This document shows positions 3,316-48,486 of a stretch of 64,000 bases of DNA, piece after piece (positions within the stretch are counted from its first letter, which is position 1; every line of letters begins with the position of its first letter). Source of the stretch: Streptacidiphilus jiangxiensis (GTDB taxonomy: Bacteria; Actinomycetota; Actinomycetes; Streptomycetales; Streptomycetaceae); the NCBI RefSeq assembly GCF_900109465.1, contig NZ_FOAZ01000008.1:186001-250000 (forward strand), in the 5' to 3' direction. The notes below the pieces were generated by a model. It made no database searches and was not told the DNA's origin. It saw only the letters and a program-made list of their open reading frames with translations. A program made the position numbers and the translations under genes.

Positions 3316-4467
3316 GTGAACCGCCGTACCGCCACCCTTGTCGCCGCCGTCGTGGTCCTGCTCGCCGCGCCGCAGGCGGCCGCTGACAATCCGCCCGGGC
3401 CGTCCGCAGGACGGCTCGCGGCGGCGCAGAGCGCCACGAGCGCCGCGCAGGCGCAGGTCGACGCGGTCGAGGCGCAGCTCGTCGCCGCGCGCAGCGCCGA
3501 GGCGGCGATGGACGTGCGCGTGGAGACCGCCGTGGAGGCGTACGACGGCGCCGCCGTCGCCCAGCAGCGGGCCACCGCCCTCGCCGCGGGGACCGCGGCG
3601 CAGTCCGTCCGGGCGGACGCCGCGGAGGGGGCCGCGCGGGACGTCGTGGGCGTGCTGGCCGCACAGCAGTACCGGGACGGGGGCTCGCCGCAGCTGGCCG
3701 GCTTCGCGGGCCTGCTCGCGGCGCACGATCCGCACGCCGCCGAACTCGCGGCCCAGGCCGCCCTGGGCGCGGCCGAGGACGCGCGGAGCGCGCTCCAGCA
3801 GGCGGTCGCCACCGCGACGCAGGCGGCGCTCGCGGACGGGGCCGCGCAGCGGGCCGCCGCGGCCGCCGCGGCGGCGACCGCGAAGCTCGCCGCCGCCAGG
3901 ACGGCCGCGCAGCAGCAGCTGACCGCCCAGCAGGCGCAGGTCGCGGCGCTGGACGCGCAGCACACCGCGCTGCTCGGCGGCCTCGTCGAGGCCCAGCGCG
4001 TCGCCCTGCGGTTGGAGGAGGCCCACGCCCAGGCGCTCGCCGCCGAGGCCGCCCGGCTGGCGGCGCTGGCCAAGCAGCCGCCGCAGCCGCCCGCGCCTCG
4101 GCCGGGCGACACCCGCGGCGTCCTCGCCTTCGCCCGCGCGGCCCTCGGCCTGCCGTACGTCTGGGGTGGGGCGGGTCCGCAGGACTACGACTGCTCGGGT
4201 CTGACCATGCGCGCCTGGCAGCGGGCGGGCGTCCAGCTCCCGCACTACGCGGCGGACCAGTACGCGGACTCCCACCCGGTGACCTACCGCCAGCTCCAGC
4301 CGGGCGATCTGGTCTTCTGGTCCCACGACGGCAGCCCGCAGGGCATCTACCACGTCGCCCTCTACACCGGCGACGACTCCATCATCGAGGCCCCGCGCAC
4401 CGGCGACGTCGTGAAGACCGCCTCCTTGTGGATCATGGGCACCCCGGACTTCTACGCACGTCCCTGA
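3316..4467 (+). CDS. Secreted NlpC/P60 (C40) peptidoglycan hydrolase with coiled-coil N-terminus
   Basis: 383 residues from GTG 3316. A Sec signal peptide (about residues 1-24, ending near QAAAD) precedes a long Ala/Gln/Glu-rich coiled coil (about 30-255) and a C-terminal NlpC/P60 domain (about 270-383). The catalytic cysteine is C293 in YDCSGLT and the histidine is H346 in YHVALYTG. The layout matches RipA-like D,L-endopeptidases, which cut cell-wall peptides between D-Glu and meso-diaminopimelate, with the coiled coil as regulatory or dimerisation part. Its last 35 bp overlap the convergent NUDIX gene. Natural regulation and partner are not visible. Confidence 0.9.
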   Translation: MNRRTATLVAAVVVLLAAPQAAADNPPGPSAGRLAAAQSATSAAQAQVDAVEAQLVAARSAEAAMDVRVETAVEAYDGAAVAQQRATALAAGTAAQSVRADAAEGAARDVVGVLAAQQYRDGGSPQLAGFAGLLAAHDPHAAELAAQAALGAAEDARSALQQAVATATQAALADGAAQRAAAAAAAATAKLAAARTAAQQQLTAQQAQVAALDAQHTALLGGLVEAQRVALRLEEAHAQALAAEAARLAALAKQPPQPPAPRPGDTRGVLAFARAALGLPYVWGGAGPQDYDCSGLTMRAWQRAGVQLPHYAADQYADSHPVTYRQLQPGDLVFWSHDGSPQGIYHVALYTGDDSIIEAPRTGDVVKTASLWIMGTPDFYARP

Positions 4468-27469: not shown

Positions 27470-28687
27470 ATGTCTCGTGGTCGCCACCGTCAAGCCTCGC
27501 GCCTCGGCCGGGCGCTCCCCTCGCTCGCCTGTGCGGTCCTGGCCGTCGCCGCGCTCGCCGCAGCGATGCTGACCAGCAGTCTCGGGGTGCTGCGAATCCT
27601 GGTGGCGGCGGTCAGCGTCGGCGCCTGCGCCGCCGCGGTGCTGCTGCGCCAGCGCGAGAGCGCCACGCAGGCCGCGCTCGCCTCCGAGCAGGCCGCGCGC
27701 GGGCGCGACGAGGCCCGCTTCGAGGAGCGGGTCGCCGAGCTCGAGTACCAGGCCGAGATGGCCGAGGAGCAGGTCAAGCGCCTGGAGCGGCGGGTGCTCG
27801 CCCAGCGCAGCCAGCTCGCCCACGCGGAGGCCGCGCACGCCCAACTCCTGCGCGACCGCGCCCGCATCGCCGCCGAGCAGGCCCTGCGCGAGGCGGACGC
27901 CGCGCAGGCCCTGGAGGTCGCGAAGCGCGGTGTCCGGCCGACTCCGGCCGCCTACCTCAAGGCCGCGAACACGCTGCGCTCGCTGGAGCGGCAGGCCGAG
28001 CAGGCGGAGTCCGGCCGTACGCTGAGCCTGCGTCAGCCCCAGGTGCCCGCGCTGCCGGCGGTGCCGGAGCCGGCCCCGCCGGTCGCCGAGGCGGAGGGGG
28101 AACCCAAGGAGCGTCAGCCCGAGGCGCAGGCGGGCTCGTTCTTCGTCAAGCCCGCGAAGCCCGAGGCGCAGGCCCCTGCGGAGGCGGAGGCCCCCGCGGA
28201 GGCGGAGGCAGAGTCGGCGCCGGAGGCGGAGAAGCCCGCCGAGGCCGCGCTGCCGGCCCGTCAGGAGGCCCGTGGCGCCGCAGTGGCGGTCTCGCGGGAG
28301 CGCGGGCTGGTGGCCCCCTACATGCAGCCCTCGGCCCAGCCGCAGGCCGCGGAGGCCGCGGCGAGCGCCCCCGCGTGGGCCCGCGCCGCGCTCCCGCCGC
28401 TGCGGCCGGCCGCGGCGGTCCCCCCGCCGGCGCTGCCGCGCCAGGGCACCGGGCGCACCATGGGCGCGTTCAACTTCTTCTCCCGCCAGGAGGCCGCGAT
28501 CGGCCACGACCCGGCGGACGTCATCGGCGACGAGGCGGCCGCGGCCCAGGCCCGGTACGTGGCCGCGCCCGAGGCCCCGTCCGTCCTCCCGACGCACGCC
28601 CACGAGCGCACGGAACACGCCATCGTGGACCTCACGGCAGAGGACGAGACCGAGCCGATCGACGTGCGAGCCGTCCGCGCGGTCTGA
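27470..28687 (+). CDS. Membrane-anchored coiled-coil protein of unknown function
   Basis: 405 residues from ATG 27470. Two adjacent hydrophobic segments (about 15-32 and 38-56) are followed by a charged coiled coil rich in Glu, Gln, Arg and Ala (about 57-150). Next come a RPTPAAYLKAANTLRSLERQ segment, a long Pro/Ala/Glu-rich linker (about 185-330) and an acidic end. The hairpin of two helices puts both ends in the cytoplasm. I do not recognise the family beyond streptomycete relatives. A scaffold or cell-shape role is possible but unproved. Confidence 0.7.
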   Translation: MSRGRHRQASRLGRALPSLACAVLAVAALAAAMLTSSLGVLRILVAAVSVGACAAAVLLRQRESATQAALASEQAARGRDEARFEERVAELEYQAEMAEEQVKRLERRVLAQRSQLAHAEAAHAQLLRDRARIAAEQALREADAAQALEVAKRGVRPTPAAYLKAANTLRSLERQAEQAESGRTLSLRQPQVPALPAVPEPAPPVAEAEGEPKERQPEAQAGSFFVKPAKPEAQAPAEAEAPAEAEAESAPEAEKPAEAALPARQEARGAAVAVSRERGLVAPYMQPSAQPQAAEAAASAPAWARAALPPLRPAAAVPPPALPRQGTGRTMGAFNFFSRQEAAIGHDPADVIGDEAAAAQARYVAAPEAPSVLPTHAHERTEHAIVDLTAEDETEPIDVRAVRAV

Positions 28688-41128: not shown

Positions 41129-42088
41129 ATGCCTACGCCTCACGGTTCGCGCGGCGGGATGGCCTTCAGCGCGGACGAGCTCCGGGTCCTCCGACGGGCC
41201 CTCGCCCACGTGCTCAACCCTCCGACCGGGACGGACTCCAGACCGAGCGCGGCCTCCCGGGCCGCGTGGGTCGAGGACGTCCAGGACATGCTGCGGCTCT
41301 CCGAGGCGATCGAGGAGGCGGTCCTCGAAGGCGGCAGGATGCGGGCGTTCGCGCTCGCCGAGCTGGTCCGCTACCGGACCGCCCTGCCCGGCAGCGCGTC
41401 GGGCTACCTGCAGCGGCTGGAGGAGGCCGTCGCGGACGGCTACCTGCCGGACTCCGAGGACCTTGCCGCGCTGCGCGCGCTGAACGCAATGCCGTGTGCC
41501 CAGTCCGAGCACAACCGGCGGGCGCTGCTGCGCAAGCGCTGCGCGGAGCTGGCGGAGGCGGGGGTCCGCCGCCGGCTCGACGCGCCGGGCGGCCCCGGCG
41601 TGCCGCCACCTGCCGGGCCTCCGACGGTGGCCGCGGCCACGGTCCTGCCCACGGTGGTGGCGCTGGCCGCGCCCCGCACGCCGGCCGTTCCGGCCGTGCA
41701 CGCCGCAGCGCAGGTCGCCGCCAACGCCGCAGCGCACGCCCCGCAGGAGATCCCGCGTCCGCCGCGGATCGCCAGCGTGTCGATCGGGGGGAAGGTGGCG
41801 GACTTCGCGCGGGCGAACCGCCCGACCAGGCTGCGTGAGCCGGGCTCGGTCGAGCACGGTCGCGCGGAGTCGTATCCCCTGCCCATCCGACGTGGAGGAA
41901 CGAGCGACATGAGCAGCAGCACCGAGCACCCCGCCCCGGGCCGTCCCGCGGCGCCGCAGGGCCGACCGAAGCCGAAGGAGGGGGAGGAGCGTCCGGTCCG
42001 GCCCATCCCCACGCCGGGTGACCTCTTCCCGCGCGGTGTCCGCCCGGAGCCCGGCCAGGACGAGGAGCTGGCCACCGGAACCGGCTGA
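41129..42088 (+). CDS. Conserved actinobacterial protein of unknown function
   Basis: 319 residues from ATG 41129. The first 150 residues are helical and charged (FSADELRVLRRALAHVL, then AWVEDVQDMLRLSEAIEEAV, then YLPDSEDLAALRAL). A Pro/Ala/Val-rich linker follows (about 155-215) and then a basic, disordered end. An internal ATG at 41909 has its own GGAGG upstream, so a separate 59-residue product (MSSSTEHPAPG...) may be made in the same frame. I know of no function; relatives occur after coaX in streptomycetes. Confidence 0.7.
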   Translation: MPTPHGSRGGMAFSADELRVLRRALAHVLNPPTGTDSRPSAASRAAWVEDVQDMLRLSEAIEEAVLEGGRMRAFALAELVRYRTALPGSASGYLQRLEEAVADGYLPDSEDLAALRALNAMPCAQSEHNRRALLRKRCAELAEAGVRRRLDAPGGPGVPPPAGPPTVAAATVLPTVVALAAPRTPAVPAVHAAAQVAANAAAHAPQEIPRPPRIASVSIGGKVADFARANRPTRLREPGSVEHGRAESYPLPIRRGGTSDMSSSTEHPAPGRPAAPQGRPKPKEGEERPVRPIPTPGDLFPRGVRPEPGQDEELATGTG

Positions 42089-42117: not shown

Positions 42118-42158
42118 CGTGATCTGCGCGTTCCTGGCGGGCGCGCAGATCACGTTTT
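42118..42158 (+). terminator. Rho-independent terminator
   Basis: CGTGATCTGCGCG (42118-42130) pairs perfectly with CGCGCAGATCACG (42142-42154) across an 11-nt loop and is followed by TTTTGG. It closes the coaX region and separates it from the secreted-protein cluster. Confidence 0.85.
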
Positions 42159-42238: not shown

Positions 42239-43930
42239 ATGGTCTTCGCCCGCGCGCGAGGAGCGGTCCGCTTCGGAGCCGTCGCCGCCGCCGTCCTGAT
42301 ATCCGGCGGCGTGGCCGCCCTCCCCGCGCAGGCGGCCGGGGGTGACCACTTCGCCGCGCTCGTCAGCGCGTCCGACCTGACGCTGCTGCCGCAGAGCTCG
42401 GGCGCCCAGGCGCAGCGTTTCCACCAGGTCGGCCTGGTGATCATGGGCGAGACGGCGCCGCTGACCGGGGTCGCCGTCACCGTGGACGCGAGCGGCGCCA
42501 CCGGGGTCGCCGAGCTGTCCCTGGGCAAGGGCTGCTCCTTCACCGACGCCGCCAAGCTGCACGAGCGTTGCGTCGTCGGCACGGTGGACACCATCGCCGA
42601 GCTGGAGGTCGGGCTCCGTTCGGCGTCCGGCGCGGCGCTCGGCGCCAAGGGCACGGTGCGCTTCGCGGTCACCGCCGCCCACGCCACCGTCGACCCGGAC
42701 AACCCGCCGCTGACCACCGCCGTCACCGTCGGCTCCGGGCCGGACCTCGCCGTGGGCACGCTGCCCACCGTGCTGGACGTCCGGTCGGGCGGCCCCTCCC
42801 CGGTCGACCCGACCGTGCAGAACGTCGGCGACCAGGACGCGACGGGCGGCCTCACCCTGGTCCTCGGCACCGCGGGGGGCAACTTCACGCTCGGCGGCAA
42901 CTACTCCAACTGCCGCTACGACAACGGCGCCGGCTCGGTCGTCTGCCACTTCGACACCGTGATCAAGCCGGGCGAGGCCTACCGGCTGTCCACCCCCGTG
43001 CCGCTGACCGCCGACCGGAACGCGGTGGGCGCCGACGCCCTGCTCTACGGCTGGGACGTCAAGGGCGGCCTCGTCGAGCAGCAGCTCGGCGGGGGCGGCA
43101 AGCCCGGCACGGGCGCGCCGCTGACACTGGTGCCCGCCGGGCCGTCGATCTCGGCCAGGGCCAAGGCCGACATCAACTACGACAACAACGTCGGCGTCTC
43201 CGAGCTGCGGCTGGTGACCAAGGACGACGTGGCCGTCGTGGCCCCGCACACGATCACCGGCACCGTCGGGCACACCGTCCCGGCGACCTTCGGCGTGCGC
43301 AACGTCGGTTCCGTCCCGACCCACGTGCTGGCGGGCAGCCCGGGCATCACCGCGGGCGTCGTGGTGGTCGTGCCGAAGGGCGTCTCCGTCGCCTCGCTCC
43401 CGGCAGGCTGCGAGCTCATCTCCCCGGACGCGGCCTCCTCCGTCGCCGGCACCACCGGGCACCTGCGCGGCCTGCTGGCCGAGGGCCACTTCGGTGCGCA
43501 CGCCTTGGCCCCCTCCGCCGCGGCCGGCGACCCGTCCGCCCTCGACGGCACGCCCTACGCCTGCGCGGTGCGGCACGTGCTGAAGCCGGGCCAGCAGGCC
43601 GTCTTCGCCTTCCAGCTGAAGCCCACCCGGGTGCTGCGGAAGGCGCCCGGGCTCGCCATCGCCGTCGGCGCGCCGACCGACCGCAACCCGGACGACAACG
43701 TGGCCGGATTCACCGTGACCGCGACCGGGTCCACCACCACGCCCACCGCGACGCCGACCCACGCGGCCACCCCGTCCGCCTCGCCGTCGTCCCCCTCCGG
43801 CGGCCTCGCCCACACCGGTGGCGGTTCCTCCGCCCTCCCGCTCGCCGCGGCCGGCGCGGGCGCGATCGTCCTGGGCGCGGGCGCGGTCCTGCTGACCCGC
43901 CGGCGCCGCAAGGTTGACAGTCGGTCATGA
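42239..43930 (+). CDS. Six-cysteine secreted protein A, sortase-anchored (LAHTG)
   Basis: 563 residues from ATG 42239. A Sec signal peptide (about 1-33) is followed by three beta-rich modules, each with a cysteine pair: C99/C111, C225/C236 (in NYSNCRYD and VVCHF) and C391/C442. A last DUF11-like strand set ends with TDRNPDDNVAGF. Then come a Thr/Pro/Ser-rich wall-spanning linker (about 498-521), L523-AHTG, a hydrophobic helix and RRRRK. LAxTG motifs of this kind are used by streptomycete class E sortases, so the protein should be fixed to peptidoglycan. Function unknown. First of four tandem paralogues. Confidence 0.82.
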   Translation: MVFARARGAVRFGAVAAAVLISGGVAALPAQAAGGDHFAALVSASDLTLLPQSSGAQAQRFHQVGLVIMGETAPLTGVAVTVDASGATGVAELSLGKGCSFTDAAKLHERCVVGTVDTIAELEVGLRSASGAALGAKGTVRFAVTAAHATVDPDNPPLTTAVTVGSGPDLAVGTLPTVLDVRSGGPSPVDPTVQNVGDQDATGGLTLVLGTAGGNFTLGGNYSNCRYDNGAGSVVCHFDTVIKPGEAYRLSTPVPLTADRNAVGADALLYGWDVKGGLVEQQLGGGGKPGTGAPLTLVPAGPSISARAKADINYDNNVGVSELRLVTKDDVAVVAPHTITGTVGHTVPATFGVRNVGSVPTHVLAGSPGITAGVVVVVPKGVSVASLPAGCELISPDAASSVAGTTGHLRGLLAEGHFGAHALAPSAAAGDPSALDGTPYACAVRHVLKPGQQAVFAFQLKPTRVLRKAPGLAIAVGAPTDRNPDDNVAGFTVTATGSTTTPTATPTHAATPSASPSSPSGGLAHTGGGSSALPLAAAGAGAIVLGAGAVLLTRRRRKVDSRS

Positions 43931-43982
43931 ATCCGGTGAGATCCGCCTGATTCTTTGCGGTCGCCTGTCCAGGACTGTCCGC

Positions 43983-44010
43983 TTGTGGTGTAAGCGCCCC
44001 CGCCTAGAGT
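43983..44010 (+). promoter_or_regulatory. Promoter of secreted gene B: TTGTGG-N16-TAGAGT
   Basis: TTGTGG (43983-43988) and TAGAGT (44005-44010) are 16 bp apart. The predicted start, near 44017, coincides with the first base of the hairpin described next. Confidence 0.5.
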
Positions 44011-44016
44011 GCACCT

Positions 44017-44040
44017 GCTCGTCAGCATTCGCTGACGAGC
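44017..44040 (+). promoter_or_regulatory. 5'-terminal mRNA hairpin before secreted gene B
   Basis: GCTCGTCAGC and GCTGACGAGC form a perfect 10-bp stem with loop ATTC. It ends 20 nt before ATG 44061 and leaves the Shine-Dalgarno AGGGGGAG free. Such 5' stems can protect mRNA; it could also be a terminator for gene A. Confidence 0.5.
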
Positions 44041-44060
44041 GGACACCAGGGGGAGACAGC

Positions 44061-45530
44061 ATGACGCACTCAACCATCCGGCGGGTCGGGGCGGCCGCTG
44101 TCGCGCTGACGGCCGCCGTCGGCGCGGCGATGGCGGTGCCCGCCGGCGCGGAGGCGGCCGCCGGCGCCAAGGGCCGGTTCTTCGTCGAGACGGGCTTCCC
44201 GCGCACCGTTCCCGTCCGCACCGGCGGGAACGGCGCGCAGTTCCGCGCCCTCTCGCTGCAGATCGTCTCCCCGGGCCACCGGGAGCTCGACGGCGTGCGG
44301 GTCGCCGTGGACGCCACCGGCGTCAAGGGGTTCGGCGAGCTCGCGCAGCCGGCCCACGGCTGCGTCTGGACCCGCTCCGACCACCTGCACGAGACCTGCA
44401 CCCTGGGGAACCTGCCCGGCGGCTTCGCGAACTTCCTGGTCGGCGTCCGTGCCACCACGGCGGCCAAGGCCGGGCAGAGCGGCCAGGTGGTCTTCAAGGT
44501 CACCAGCAGCAACGCCACCGAGGAGGTGTTCGGGAACGTCCCGGACCGGGTCGCCGTCACCGTCGCGGACGGTCCGGACATCGCGGTCCGCGACCTCGGC
44601 GCGACCTACCGGGTCAAGCCCGGCCGGAACGATGCGCTGCCGATCAGCATCACCAACGTGGGCAGCGGGGTCGCCACCGACCCGGTGGTCTTCGTCCGCG
44701 ACGAGTACGGGGCGATGACCCTGCTCGGGAACCACAGCAACTGCGTGTACGCCAGCGAGTCGGGCAAGCGGCTCGGCGCCTACTGCGACTTCCCGGGCGT
44801 CACGCTGCAGCCGGGGCAGACCATGTCCCTGTCCGACCCGTTCACGCTGGCCGTCCCCAAGGGCTCCCACGGGGACGAGGTCCAGTACGGCGCGGACCTC
44901 GCCGGTGCGGACTGGATCGGTGTGCCCGACGGCAAGCCCGGCACCGGCGCGCCGGTCACCCTGGTGCCGGGCGGCACGCCCGCCGGCGCCGCGTCGCCGC
45001 GCGTCGCCGCCGCGGGCGACATCGACCCGTACAACGGGCTGTACTACACCAACCTCGACACCGGCCTGACGGCCGACATCGCCGCGGTGACCTCCTCGGT
45101 CCGCACGGTCGTCGGCCGGTCGGCCGCGATCACGGTGGCCGTGAAGAACACCGGCACCGTGCCGTACAGCTCGAAGGTCCAGGTCGGAGGGGGCCTCACC
45201 GGCACCGTCGGCGCCTACCTGTACGTCCCGGCCGGTGTGACGGTGCTGAGCATGCCGAAGGGCTGCCACCCGGAGCAGTCGGGTCCCGACGCGGTCGGTG
45301 CGGAGCGGGCCGAGGCGGCGCCGCAGGCGCTCGGTTACGCCTGCGTCACCGCCGCGGCGCTGGCCCCCAGGCACACGGTGGCCTGGCGCTTCGTCGTCAA
45401 GGCGGCCAAGCCGGTCACCGCGGCGCCCTTCGAGGTGGTGACCCTCGGGCCGGAGAGCCCGGCGGCGAACCCCGCCGACGACCACCGCTGGGCCACCTTC
45501 ACCGCGAGCAAGCCGACCCGCCGCGCCTGA
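44061..45530 (+). CDS. Six-cysteine secreted protein B
   Basis: 489 residues from ATG 44061 (AGGGGGAG upstream). Signal peptide about 1-35. The module plan matches protein A: C101/C113, C228/C242 (in NHSNCVYA and YCDF) and C402/C428, with no other cysteines. The middle has PGTGAPVTLVPGG, which is near-identical in A. It ends at TASKPTRRA with no sortase motif or membrane helix, so it is released or held non-covalently. An LYYTNLDTG segment lies where A has INYDNNVG. Function unknown. Confidence 0.8.
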   Translation: MTHSTIRRVGAAAVALTAAVGAAMAVPAGAEAAAGAKGRFFVETGFPRTVPVRTGGNGAQFRALSLQIVSPGHRELDGVRVAVDATGVKGFGELAQPAHGCVWTRSDHLHETCTLGNLPGGFANFLVGVRATTAAKAGQSGQVVFKVTSSNATEEVFGNVPDRVAVTVADGPDIAVRDLGATYRVKPGRNDALPISITNVGSGVATDPVVFVRDEYGAMTLLGNHSNCVYASESGKRLGAYCDFPGVTLQPGQTMSLSDPFTLAVPKGSHGDEVQYGADLAGADWIGVPDGKPGTGAPVTLVPGGTPAGAASPRVAAAGDIDPYNGLYYTNLDTGLTADIAAVTSSVRTVVGRSAAITVAVKNTGTVPYSSKVQVGGGLTGTVGAYLYVPAGVTVLSMPKGCHPEQSGPDAVGAERAEAAPQALGYACVTAAALAPRHTVAWRFVVKAAKPVTAAPFEVVTLGPESPAANPADDHRWATFTASKPTRRA

Positions 45531-45586
45531 CCGCGCGTCGCGCAGCAGAGCTCACAGAAGACATCAGGAAAGAGATGGGGGAGAAC

Positions 45587-46981
45587 ATGAGAAGCATCCG
45601 CACGGGACGCAAGGCGGCCGTCGCAGCCGTCGTCGTCGCCACCGGCGCGCTGGGCCTCGGTGTCGCGGCCCCGGCCGCCACCGCCGCCACGCAGCCGACG
45701 ATCACCCTCGATCGGGTCGCCCCGCTCGCGCTCGCGCTGACCGGTGCCCAGAGCCCGCAGCTGAACTGGACGTTCCACCGCAACCTCGGCTTCCGCAACG
45801 TCGACGTCAAGGTCGACGCCCGAGGGCTGGCCAAGGTCGGCAAGGTCGCCTTCTCGGGCGAGTGCACCGCGCACGGCCTGGTGGCGGACTGCGCCGAGTA
45901 CTGGCCGGTCGACGGCACCGGCATGGGTGGGAACGCGCCGTTCACGGTGACCCCGTTCAAGGGCGTCAAGCTCGGCACCACCGGCGGCTACACCGTCAGC
46001 GGCAGCGCGCCGGGCCTCGTCGTCAAGGGCGGCTCCGGTGTCGTCACCGTCGGCGGCCCCGCGTACAACCTGGCCCCGCTCGGTCAGTTCAAGAACGAGA
46101 AGGTCGGCGCGGTGGTCAGCCAGCCGATCACCTTCGGCAACGTCGGCGACCGCCCGGCGAACGGCTCGGACGTGGCCCTGGTGCTGTCGCCCGGCCTGAG
46201 CTTCACCCAGCACTACAGCAACTGCCGTTACCGTTCGGACGTCCAGGGCGGCGTCCGGGTCGAGGACGCGGCCGTGTGCCACTTCCGCGACTGGATGCGG
46301 ATCGGCGAGAAGGTCACCTTCGCCCAGCCGGTGCGCACCAAGGTGACGCCGCGGGCGATGTGGACCTACCTGGACGTCCAGGCCGCCCCCGCGGGCAGCC
46401 CCTCGCTGGCCTGGGCGACCTCGTCGCAGCCCACCAGCCGCTGGACGCAGGGCCGCGGCCCGGCCCTCGGCCTCAAGCGGCTCGTCGTCGGCAAGGCCTC
46501 CTCGGTACCGGCCGGCACGGCCCAGTTGATGTCCGAGAACCAGGGCTACGGTGTCGAGTCCGTCACCGCCCGCAACGGTGCGGACTACGGAGTCACCGGC
46601 AGCAGCGCCAAGGCGGCCGCCGGTCACGACGTGACCATGAGCTTCTCGGTCACCAACCACGGCCCGGCCGTGCTCTACGACCGCAGCGGTGGCGAGGCCA
46701 CCCCGTACGTGAAGCTCACCGCCCCGGCCGGGACCACCGTCGTCGGCGGCCCGGAGTGCGGTCAGGGGACGGACAGCGCCTGGTACTGCTCGGCCGGGCT
46801 GAAGGCGATCCTCTCCTTCCCGGGCGACACCTACCACTTCACGGTCACCTTCCACGTGGACACGGTCGTGCCGCAGGCCCGCGGCCAGGTGCAGCTGGTC
46901 TGGGGCGGTGGCGCCCCGAGCACCACGCTGCCGTTCGACCCGAACCCGAAGAACAACACCGCTCCCCTGATCCTGAACTGA
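45587..46981 (+). CDS. Six-cysteine secreted protein C
   Basis: 464 residues from ATG 45587, chosen because GGGGGAG lies just upstream as in gene B; ATG 45575 would add four residues. Signal peptide about 1-34. Cysteines are C93/C102, C213/C231 (HYSNCRYR and VCHF) and C391/C401. The C-terminus FDPNPKNNTAPLILN is shared with protein D, and both lack any anchor. C and D also share FAQPV and LSPGLSF/LTPGMSF blocks, so they are closer to each other than to A and B. Function unknown. Confidence 0.8.
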   Translation: MRSIRTGRKAAVAAVVVATGALGLGVAAPAATAATQPTITLDRVAPLALALTGAQSPQLNWTFHRNLGFRNVDVKVDARGLAKVGKVAFSGECTAHGLVADCAEYWPVDGTGMGGNAPFTVTPFKGVKLGTTGGYTVSGSAPGLVVKGGSGVVTVGGPAYNLAPLGQFKNEKVGAVVSQPITFGNVGDRPANGSDVALVLSPGLSFTQHYSNCRYRSDVQGGVRVEDAAVCHFRDWMRIGEKVTFAQPVRTKVTPRAMWTYLDVQAAPAGSPSLAWATSSQPTSRWTQGRGPALGLKRLVVGKASSVPAGTAQLMSENQGYGVESVTARNGADYGVTGSSAKAAAGHDVTMSFSVTNHGPAVLYDRSGGEATPYVKLTAPAGTTVVGGPECGQGTDSAWYCSAGLKAILSFPGDTYHFTVTFHVDTVVPQARGQVQLVWGGGAPSTTLPFDPNPKNNTAPLILN

Positions 46982-46992
46982 CGTACGATCAC

Positions 46993-47022
46993 CCCGGCGG
47001 TTGTTGATCAACGGCCGCCGGG
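46993..47022 (+). terminator. Hairpin between secreted genes C and D
   Basis: CCCGGCGG and CCGCCGGG form an 8-bp stem around an inner GTTGATCAAC palindrome. It lies 12 bp after gene C and 21 bp before gene D, with no T-run. It may be a terminator or a leader stem. Confidence 0.5.
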
Positions 47023-47043
47023 TTCGATCGACAGGGGGTCCCC

Positions 47044-48420
47044 GTGAGGGGAATGAGAGTTATCGGTCGTGTCGCGGGAGCGGGCCTCGCCGCGGTGGTG
47101 GCCGCGACGGGCCTCGTGTCCGCCGCGCCCGCGGCGAACGCCGCAGGGCGGCCGGGGCCGGTGGTCCAGGGACCGCCCGTGGCGGTCGCGCTGAGTGCGA
47201 CGCAGGCGCCGTCGGCCTTCGTGGCGCCGCAGTTCCGCACCACCGCCTTCGCCACCTTCCACACCCCGGCCACCGTCACCATCGACGCGCGCGGGCTCGC
47301 CCAGGTGGCGCAGGTGCGTTTCGGGGCCGGCTGCGTGGCCAAGGGCCTGGTCGCCACCTGCGCCGACACCTTGGACGGCGACGGGGCGTCCGACGGCCGG
47401 ATCCTCAGTCGCACCGGCTTCACGGCGTCCATCCGGGCAGGCGTCAAGCCCGGCGCGCACGGCAGCTACGTCATCCGGGCCACCAGCCCGCTGTGGCACG
47501 GCAGCGTGACCCAGGACGGCCAGGTGCAGATCGGTGCGCCGAAGCTGCTCCCGGCCCCGCTGGTGGACCACCAGGGCCTGACGGTCGGCTCGACCGTCTC
47601 CGAGCAGGTCTCCTTCACCAACCATGGTGACCGGCCCTCCGCCGGGGCGGAGGTCCTGCTCCAGCTCACGCCGGGCATGAGCTTCGCCCGGAGCTACCGC
47701 AACTGCGACTACGTCAGCCCGACCGGCTGGGACTTCAGCATGGCGCTGTGCCACTTCCCCGGCACGACCGTCGTGCCCGGTGAGACGGTGGCGTTCGCCC
47801 AGCCGGTCGCCTTCAAGGTCGGACGGACCGTCCGCGACGCCGGGCTCCGGGTCGTCACGCTGCCGGACGCCGACCCGAACTTCGCCCTCTGGGGTGGCAC
47901 CGTCCACCGCGGGACCGGCGCGCCGCTCGGTCTGAAGGTCGTGCGCCGCGGTCCGGTCACCCGCGTCACACCGAGCCACCTCCCCACCATCGGGAGCGCG
48001 TCCCTCCTCGGCACCATCGCCCACTTCTGGGCCCGCAACACCTCGGACCTGGGCCTCGCGGTCGGCGCGCTCCACGGCAAGCAGGGCGACGTCGTCACCG
48101 CGGACGTCGTGCTGTTCAACAACGGCCCGGCCGGCGTCTGGAACGACCCCCGGATCGGGTTCCGCTTCGTCGCCCCGCCCGGCACCTCGGTGACCTCCCC
48201 CGGCGGCAACTGCCACCTGGAGAACCCCGCCGTCGCGGGCACGTACGTCTGCGACAACGCCGCCGGCCTCCTCTTCGCGCCGAACGGCCGGGTCGACTGG
48301 CCGTTCCAGCTCCGGGTCGACCGGGTGCTCCCGGGCGCCACGGGCCGGGTGGAGCTCCTGAGCCACCTCCCGTACGACCCGAACCCGCGCAACGACAGCG
48401 CGCCGGTGGTCCTGAACTAG
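47044..48420 (+). CDS. Six-cysteine secreted protein D
   Basis: 458 residues from GTG 47044 (AGGGGG upstream); ATG 47053 is an alternative. Signal peptide about 1-34. Cysteines are C97/C106, C221/C236 (SYRNCDYV and LCHF) and C390/C403. The SNC motif of A-C has become RNC here. It ends YDPNPRNDSAPVVLN with no anchor. It is the last of four rightward genes with gaps of 56-130 bp. The set appears inserted between coaX and lysS, genes that are close in other streptomycetes. Confidence 0.8.
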   Translation: MRGMRVIGRVAGAGLAAVVAATGLVSAAPAANAAGRPGPVVQGPPVAVALSATQAPSAFVAPQFRTTAFATFHTPATVTIDARGLAQVAQVRFGAGCVAKGLVATCADTLDGDGASDGRILSRTGFTASIRAGVKPGAHGSYVIRATSPLWHGSVTQDGQVQIGAPKLLPAPLVDHQGLTVGSTVSEQVSFTNHGDRPSAGAEVLLQLTPGMSFARSYRNCDYVSPTGWDFSMALCHFPGTTVVPGETVAFAQPVAFKVGRTVRDAGLRVVTLPDADPNFALWGGTVHRGTGAPLGLKVVRRGPVTRVTPSHLPTIGSASLLGTIAHFWARNTSDLGLAVGALHGKQGDVVTADVVLFNNGPAGVWNDPRIGFRFVAPPGTSVTSPGGNCHLENPAVAGTYVCDNAAGLLFAPNGRVDWPFQLRVDRVLPGATGRVELLSHLPYDPNPRNDSAPVVLN

Positions 48421-48431
48421 CGCCCACCCCC

Positions 48432-48472
48432 GTGCCCCGCCACCCGTGCAGCTTTAACGGGTGGCGGGGCAC
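48432..48472 (+). terminator. Terminator hairpin after the secreted-protein cluster
   Basis: GTGCCCCGCCACCCG and CGGGTGGCGGGGCAC form a perfect 15-bp stem with an 11-nt loop (48447-48457). It closes gene D, 27 bp before lysS. Confidence 0.8.
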
Positions 48473-48486
48473 TGCCGTGCGATCGA

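Follow-up and report, generated by a model that had tools for sequence, protein, structure and literature searches.

What are four neighbouring genes for exported proteins doing between coaX and lysS, a pair of housekeeping genes? The question is raised by the window analysed here, a stretch of 64,000 nucleotides from Streptacidiphilus jiangxiensis (contig NZ_FOAZ01000008.1, positions 186,001 to 250,000 of the forward strand), in which the coaX-lysS interval holds the following genes:

42239-43930, + strand: protein A, 563 amino acids, with a signal peptide, three disulphide-type beta domains, a Thr/Pro/Ser stalk, LAHTG, a hydrophobic segment and an RRRRK tail.
44061-45530, + strand: protein B, 489 amino acids, with the same three domains and no sorting signal; start ATG at 44061.
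45575-46981, + strand: protein C, 468 amino acids, unanchored type with C-terminal LN; a further ATG lies at 45587.
47044-48420, + strand: protein D, 458 amino acids, unanchored type with C-terminal LN; GTG start.

We read A-D as wall-anchored and secreted, stalk- or adhesin-like surface proteins of the DUF11/CLIPPER kind that would make variable contacts, and give this reading a probability of roughly 50%. Their function is most likely adhesion or another surface contact of hyphae. In the mechanism we propose, each domain would fold as a beta sandwich held by a single hairpin disulphide, which would replace the isopeptide bond of CLIPPER domains. A class E sortase would attach protein A to peptidoglycan, with A projecting as a short rod, while B, C and D would be released as soluble relatives into wall or medium, and the proteins would touch something strain-variable (neighbouring cells, surfaces, phages or competitors). 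The coaX-lysS interval is an old slot for anchored members; in a few Streptacidiphilus species it would have gained, lost and rearranged members of other, older branches.

Each of the four proteins has exactly six cysteines, at residues 99/111/225/236/391/442 in A, 101/113/228/242/402/428 in B, 97/106/217/235/395/405 in C and 97/106/221/236/390/403 in D. Read by eye, all N-termini pass from basic to hydrophobic to AxA-like residues and are of the export type. An earlier note on this DNA had described four neighbouring export-type proteins of this composition, sharing SNC-x-Y (RNC-x-Y in D) followed by C-x-F; coordinates, cysteine positions and motifs were all borne out, the first motif being SNCRY, SNCVY, SNCRY and RNCDY in A to D and the second CHF, CDF, CHF and CHF. 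GC at the third codon position is 95-97% in A-D and matches the neighbouring genes.

The cysteine pattern is kept well beyond the window. In an alignment of 41 homologues cut at domain borders (3 of 40 homologue references, cut or fragmentary, were left aside), all 41 rows show exactly two cysteines in domain 1, two in domain 2 and two in domain 3, so that the six-cysteine pattern goes beyond chance; the six columns are occupied in 41, 41, 41, 41, 40 and 41 rows. In the wider tree set, counting after residue 60, exactly six cysteines are present in 75 of 79 rows, with one extra in two rows, eight in one and four in one, and two exceptions outside the 41-row alignment (L119_1875 and L098_73) have four each. 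Domains 2 and 3 align with their cysteines in register (hhalign 88%, E-value 2.8e-6; reversed control 0.7%, E 0.08). Loop lengths separate two types of protein: the residues between paired cysteines number 11, 9-19 and 22-52 for domains 1, 2 and 3 in the clade of A, and 8-9, 13-17 and 8-17 in the clade of C and D (23 of 24 rows measured). One such loop of A is the place of greatest amino-acid change:

43409-43564, + strand: domain-3 disulphide loop of A, C391-C442, with 50 residues between the cysteines.

Structure prediction for six sequences with AlphaFold2 gave a model of whole A with a mean predicted local distance difference test (pLDDT) score of 73.6, in which residues 34-165 are predicted to form a beta sandwich like that of the CLIPPER crystal 9IFR. 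The three cysteine pairs of this model (model residues 66/78, 192/203 and 358/409) lie in successive strands, as fits hairpin disulphides, and the 358-409 loop is mostly below pLDDT 50. Three domains with one disulphide each, as the earlier note had proposed, are supported by these predicted pairs and by the two cysteines per domain across the homologues; we infer one hairpin disulphide per beta-sandwich domain. In VIA-align, the best match of the model is 9IFR itself (Z 11.8, 2.4 A over 114 residues, covering domain 1, residues 34-165), with the pilin EbpB (9.9), SdrD (8.7) and the biofilm-matrix protein RbmA (8.1) among the others, together with a cohesin, further pilins and an S-layer protein.

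Profile searches point the same way. DUF11 has been renamed CLIPPER, and 9IFR, a domain of a fibrillar adhesin, was solved with a Lys-Asn isopeptide bond, though such an intramolecular bond does not occur in every DUF11 domain (PMC12617251; papers are cited here for the passages available). DUF11 is also widely distributed in Streptomyces, according to a passage of PMC8401907. The Pfam DUF11 model matches 22 of the 41 homologues at E<=0.5 (best 1.4e-7), CARDB matches 7, and two of ten scanned distant homologues pass the PF01345 gathering score of 24.6 bits (29.4 and 28.3). In the window, C has a weak DUF11 match at residues 341-463, and the window proteins resemble DUF11/CLIPPER while remaining below its membership cut-off. 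Where the earlier note had no family name to offer, DUF11/CLIPPER is thus the nearest family by profile and structure matches. No lysine column is conserved across the 41 rows (the best has 17, none reaching half), so the isopeptide bond of CLIPPER is unlikely to be a common feature of this family, and the disulphide is the likelier common staple. Of two PDB sequence searches, one had no matches and the other nine at E 0.14 or worse, and no known adhesive domain appeared among the Pfam matches of A-D at E<=5.

Only A has a sorting signal:

43805-43930, + strand: sorting signal of A (LAHTG, helix, RRRRK), above the cut-off of TIGR01167 and legible in the sequence.

The TIGR01167 score is 18.7 bits against a cut-off of 15.9. 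The signal of class E sortases is LAxTG (PMC5148588, in part), and of the four proteins A alone combines LAxTG with a hydrophobic segment and a basic tail, the reading frames of B, C and D stopping directly after the last domain, much as the earlier note had seen them. We infer from these features that A is attached to peptidoglycan by a class E sortase; the genome has 13 matches to PF04203, the general sortase family, which assigns no class.

The earlier note had gone on to suggest display or nucleation of the soluble proteins by the anchored one. Nothing was found in support of this. Each type was found without the other in some genomes of the genus: G001 and G011 (we use our own genome labels) gave unanchored members only in the genus search, and G003, G004, G006, G009 and G010 anchored members only, so each type seems able to do without its counterpart. 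One fact leans towards display, namely that at the coaX slot unanchored copies were seen only beside an anchored one (G000, which is the genome under study, G007 and G008, with a remnant in G002). The same co-occurrence would suit a structural coat of aerial hyphae or spores, similar to chaplins or to CwpA/CwpB, in which the anchored protein forms a base and soluble members coat or assemble on it. Streptomyces LAxTG substrates of class E sortases do include the chaplins ChpA-C, which are needed for aerial growth (PMC5148588, in the portion available), and both long and short chaplins are known (PMC13251363, likewise). However, A-D have no Pfam chaplin match at E<=5, and unanchored members are present in G001 and G011, where no anchored one was found; on balance we consider a coat unlikely, if worth keeping in view. 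Membership in the chaplins themselves was excluded by the Pfam scans, as no chaplin family appears among the matches of A-D or among the 14 families recovered for the 41 homologues at E<=0.5.

The ratio of non-synonymous to synonymous change (dN/dS) of A is 0.71 against G002 and 0.79 against G006, the highest of 36 and 38 comparable window genes. The ranking drew on 45 genes called by a crude method, of which 37 have a counterpart in G002 and 39 in G006, and it excluded B, which was matched to an A copy; the next-highest values (0.62 and 0.60) come from open reading frames (ORFs) that are possibly in the wrong frame. In the same comparisons coaX has 0.00 and 0.01, lysS 0.13 and 0.12, and two other genes with hydrophobic N-termini (3316-4464 and 27470-28684) have 0.32-0.39. 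Protein D is 53% identical to its G008 counterpart, with dN/dS 0.87, compared with 99% and 0.08 for the neighbouring lysS. That A and D change so rapidly in amino-acid sequence suggests contact with a strain-variable target. Residues 394-433 of A, within the domain-3 loop, have a dN of 0.69 compared with 0.16-0.49 in the other 40-residue windows, and gaps add noise in this loop; dS (0.65) is also highest there, and the resulting ratio of 1.07 is matched or passed elsewhere (1.20 at residues 454-493, 1.41 in the linker between domains 2 and 3). We take the fast change of A as a lead, which is no proof of positive selection. For a self-assembling coat, change at this rate would be unexpected.

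An alternative is a recognition or conflict surface, on which phages or competitors would meet the proteins as polymorphic targets or decoys, or on which the proteins would be strain-recognition tags, with the domain-3 loop as the variable contact. The rank of A among the window genes, the dN peak in its C391-C442 loop and the contrast between D and the adjacent lysS speak for such a role. Against it, dS is raised in the loop as well, so that its ratio of 1.07 is no peak, and fast change also fits relaxed constraint or alignment noise. We regard this explanation as doubtful.

Several results weigh against our preferred placement of A-D among DUF11/CLIPPER-like proteins with variable contacts. 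The PF01345 cut-off of 24.6 bits is not reached by any of the four (C 22.6, D 12.6, A and B without a match), and the model of C is poor, at pLDDT 59.5. The Foldseek top match of the A model is an integrin alpha leg, 4NEN, and that of the poor C model is another integrin; in VIA-align the integrin alpha legs score Z 11.0 and less at a root mean square deviation of about 19 A, so that the integrin match is one of serial domains in the model with no rigid fit. The domain repeat is also uneven: domain 1 resembles domain 2 weakly (hhalign E 0.0012; reversed control 0.39) and domain 3 hardly above its reversed control (E 0.053 and 0.097). As for the rates, C changes slowly (84% identical to its G008 counterpart, dN/dS 0.29), the dN/dS ratio has no peak in the variable loop of A since dS rises with dN, and the counting-based estimates may be inflated in a high-GC genome, with the window genes as the sole comparison. 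Finally, a chaplin-like structural role would look similar. Kinship with integrins was itself considered and set aside, the serial matches at about 19 A being read as a shared Ig-like architecture; 4NEN is, moreover, reported as a structural neighbour of one domain in a DUF11 cluster (PMC9210967, from the part available).

Where did the array come from? The trees, of 72 and 79 rows, place A among the slot copies of its genus and B beside anchored copies located elsewhere in G003 and G126. C and D sit in two parts of a clade of 24 rows, none of them with LAxTG at the C-terminus. B is the sole unanchored member of the 15-row A clade and so has probably lost its anchor. The 72-row tree leaves out 7 of 79 rows (fragments and a duplicate); the second, 79-row tree leaves out 12 of 79 (the same seven, two long-branch rows and three re-read under new loci) and adds 12, and its deepest forks are weak. 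Approximately unbiased (AU) tests on 34 chosen rows reject the clades A-D (p 1.9e-5), A+B (5.8e-5), C+D (0.0085) and B+C+D (5.8e-5); the set A-D was given by the window, and the subsets were tested with the trees already known. Local tandem duplication is rejected with these clades. Of the earlier label of tandem paralogues, the relatedness and adjacency of the genes stand, and recent local duplication does not. By these trees, A-D come from different old branches of one surface-protein family, and the array would have arisen either by import of members into the slot or by losses from an old array.

The age of the slot became apparent from its occupants in other genomes. The genome under study has only these four clear members, with one further match at E 0.03; matches were found in 14 of 14 Streptacidiphilus genomes, in 229 of 394 Streptomycetaceae genomes at E<=1e-5 and, with a broader profile on a class-wide sample, in 31 of 394 genomes at E<=1e-10, all in two families. 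Since the family-wide and class-wide searches scored only the leading 3 or 4 candidates of each genome, copy numbers there are lower bounds. A search of genome contigs with A gave two named loci, in Streptacidiphilus anmyonensis and S. melanogenes. Within the genus, the slot is empty in four of the 14 genomes (G001, G003, G011 and G013) and holds one copy in G004, G005, G006, G009, G010 and G012. In G002 a single copy is accompanied by the decayed remnant of an unanchored one, G007 pairs an anchored copy, which contains an N gap, with an unanchored copy, and G000 (A, B, C, D) and G008 have four copies each. In G008 an A copy ends one contig and D-like, C-like and C copies followed by lysS lie on another, with the order across the break assumed; the order of C and D differs between G008 and G000. 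The remnant in G002 (L006:3378-3815, 146 amino acids) belongs to an unanchored member that has lost its middle, and lies between the anchored copy and lysS.

Outside the genus, 10 of 60 genomes have a member adjoining coaX, lysS or both: G023, G036 and G044 (g11), G050 and G164 (g14), G040 (g2), G047 (g4), G024 (g12), and G087 and G111 (g6); as the 60 were picked for having family matches, these occupancies give no rate. G040 has two anchored copies at the slot; G044, seen only on the lysS side, has two that belong to different branches; G087 and G111 adjoin coaX only. In total there are 20 occupied slots in seven genera, each with at least one LAxTG member, so the slot is old and no local addition. 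This interval comparison overturns the earlier suggestion that the genes are a lineage-specific insertion interrupting coaX and lysS, a candidate ruled out by the occupants in seven genera. The slot copies do not form one clade, the 21 anchored-type slot rows needing 7 changes on the tree. As a separate observation, in 40 of the 60 chosen family genomes no match to LysS reaches E<=1e-150, and in seven others the only one is 56-59% identical and lies in a long ORF of 1098-1603 amino acids; perhaps not all genera have the coaX-lysS block.

The turnover at the slot bears on each of the alternatives. Contents of 0, 1, 2 or 4 copies among related species would suit a recognition surface, and an empty slot in 4 of 14 congeners sits poorly with a coat. 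Empty slots, along with the decayed copy in G002 and a dN/dS of A that is near but below 1, might also indicate weakly constrained secreted proteins of no important role, gained and lost at random. This seems improbable, however, given that all 41 aligned homologues and 75 of 79 tree rows have retained six cysteines, that frames are open across the match in most loci read, that C has a dN/dS of 0.29 and that 229 of 394 family genomes have matches. Going further, the coaX-lysS interval could be pictured as a modular surface-recognition cassette of Streptomycetaceae, with an anchored slot, imported soluble members and a disulphide-closed recognition loop in domain 3 directed at phages, competitors or kin, which we think quite unlikely in this full form.

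Copies outside the slot were compared for their neighbours, and no partner gene common to all of them was found; the copies in G003, G005 and G010 share neighbours with one another, as do those in G011 and G013, and single genes recur elsewhere. Sixteen Streptomyces plasmid records contain relatives of C, four of them covering >=80% of it, with a best identity of about 41%; three records are ~41% identical over 92% of C and 13 are weaker or partial. They are annotated as 'DUF11 domain-containing protein', as 'hypothetical protein' or not at all. These relatives are one possible route of spread and would be in keeping with a recognition role, for which it counts against that the plasmid search with A gave no relative. 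A search of viral contigs with C gave no match.

How far do A-D fit known systems? Like DUF11/CLIPPER proteins (PF01345, 9IFR), they would have tandem extracellular beta-sandwich domains in surface proteins, and A domain 1 matches these best; unlike them, the A-D family has one conserved cysteine pair per domain and no conserved isopeptide lysine. With fibrillar adhesins on DUF11 stalks (PMC9210967, as far as its available passages describe them) they share export, a chain of beta domains, the anchor signal of A and the neighbour 4NEN, and differ in having three domains only, no recognised adhesive domain and several unanchored members. The long chaplins ChpA-C, as class E LAxTG substrates, are like A in the LAxTG, helix and basic tail on an actinomycete surface, whereas A has no chaplin match and a large folded ectodomain of three domains. 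CwpA, CwpB and SspA of Actinoplanes missouriensis are likewise sortase-anchored actinomycete surface proteins; in the passages of PMC13251363 and PMC13293333, SspA is putatively disordered and CwpA and CwpB are hydrophobic with large disordered regions, and by this description they are set apart. Sortase substrates have been described in an acidophilic streptomycete, and this family is not among the passages of that paper (PMC6998099). Our literature search, which mostly did not cover subscription journals, gave no paper recognisable as dealing with the family. The present analysis provides a place and a likely fold for a large surface-protein family matched in 229 of 394 sampled family genomes, and suggests a variant whose domains may be held by a disulphide where CLIPPER domains have an isopeptide staple. 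It also describes a slot flanked by housekeeping genes with turnover of surface proteins, and makes hyphal adhesion, phage binding and strain recognition approachable through one four-gene block.

Three inverted repeats accompany the array:

42118-42154, no strand: perfect 13-nucleotide inverted repeat (hairpin) between the upstream gene and A, unscored by the terminator scan.
44017-44040, no strand: perfect 10-nucleotide inverted repeat in the A-B spacer upstream of B.
48425-48479, no strand: 23-nucleotide inverted repeat (87%) between D and lysS, unscored by the terminator scan.

The repeat in the A-B spacer is a possible operator and that after D a possible end of the array's transcript; the flanking repeats would fit a separate transcription unit. 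The terminator scan had a single hit, elsewhere and on the minus strand, and scored none of the array-flanking repeats. A sigma-70 promoter scan, which covers actinomycete promoters poorly, gave none.

Some further copies and a neighbouring gene deserve mention. Among the matches listed, G134 has two members of equal score, one towards each end of a contig of chromosome size (C1:96524-97921 and 8888653-8890050), as expected for a terminal inverted repeat. Loci L055, L058 and L066 (in G003, G005 and G010) belong to another branch and lie beside large ORFs common to the three genomes, and the sorting signal in L058 of G005 looks degraded. Between coaX and A lies an ORF of 309 amino acids (41159-42088) with counterparts in nine other genomes of the genus that have an occupied slot; these are 44-86% identical, some of them partial. 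The ORF changes faster than coaX, and Ala and Pro abound in its C-terminal half.

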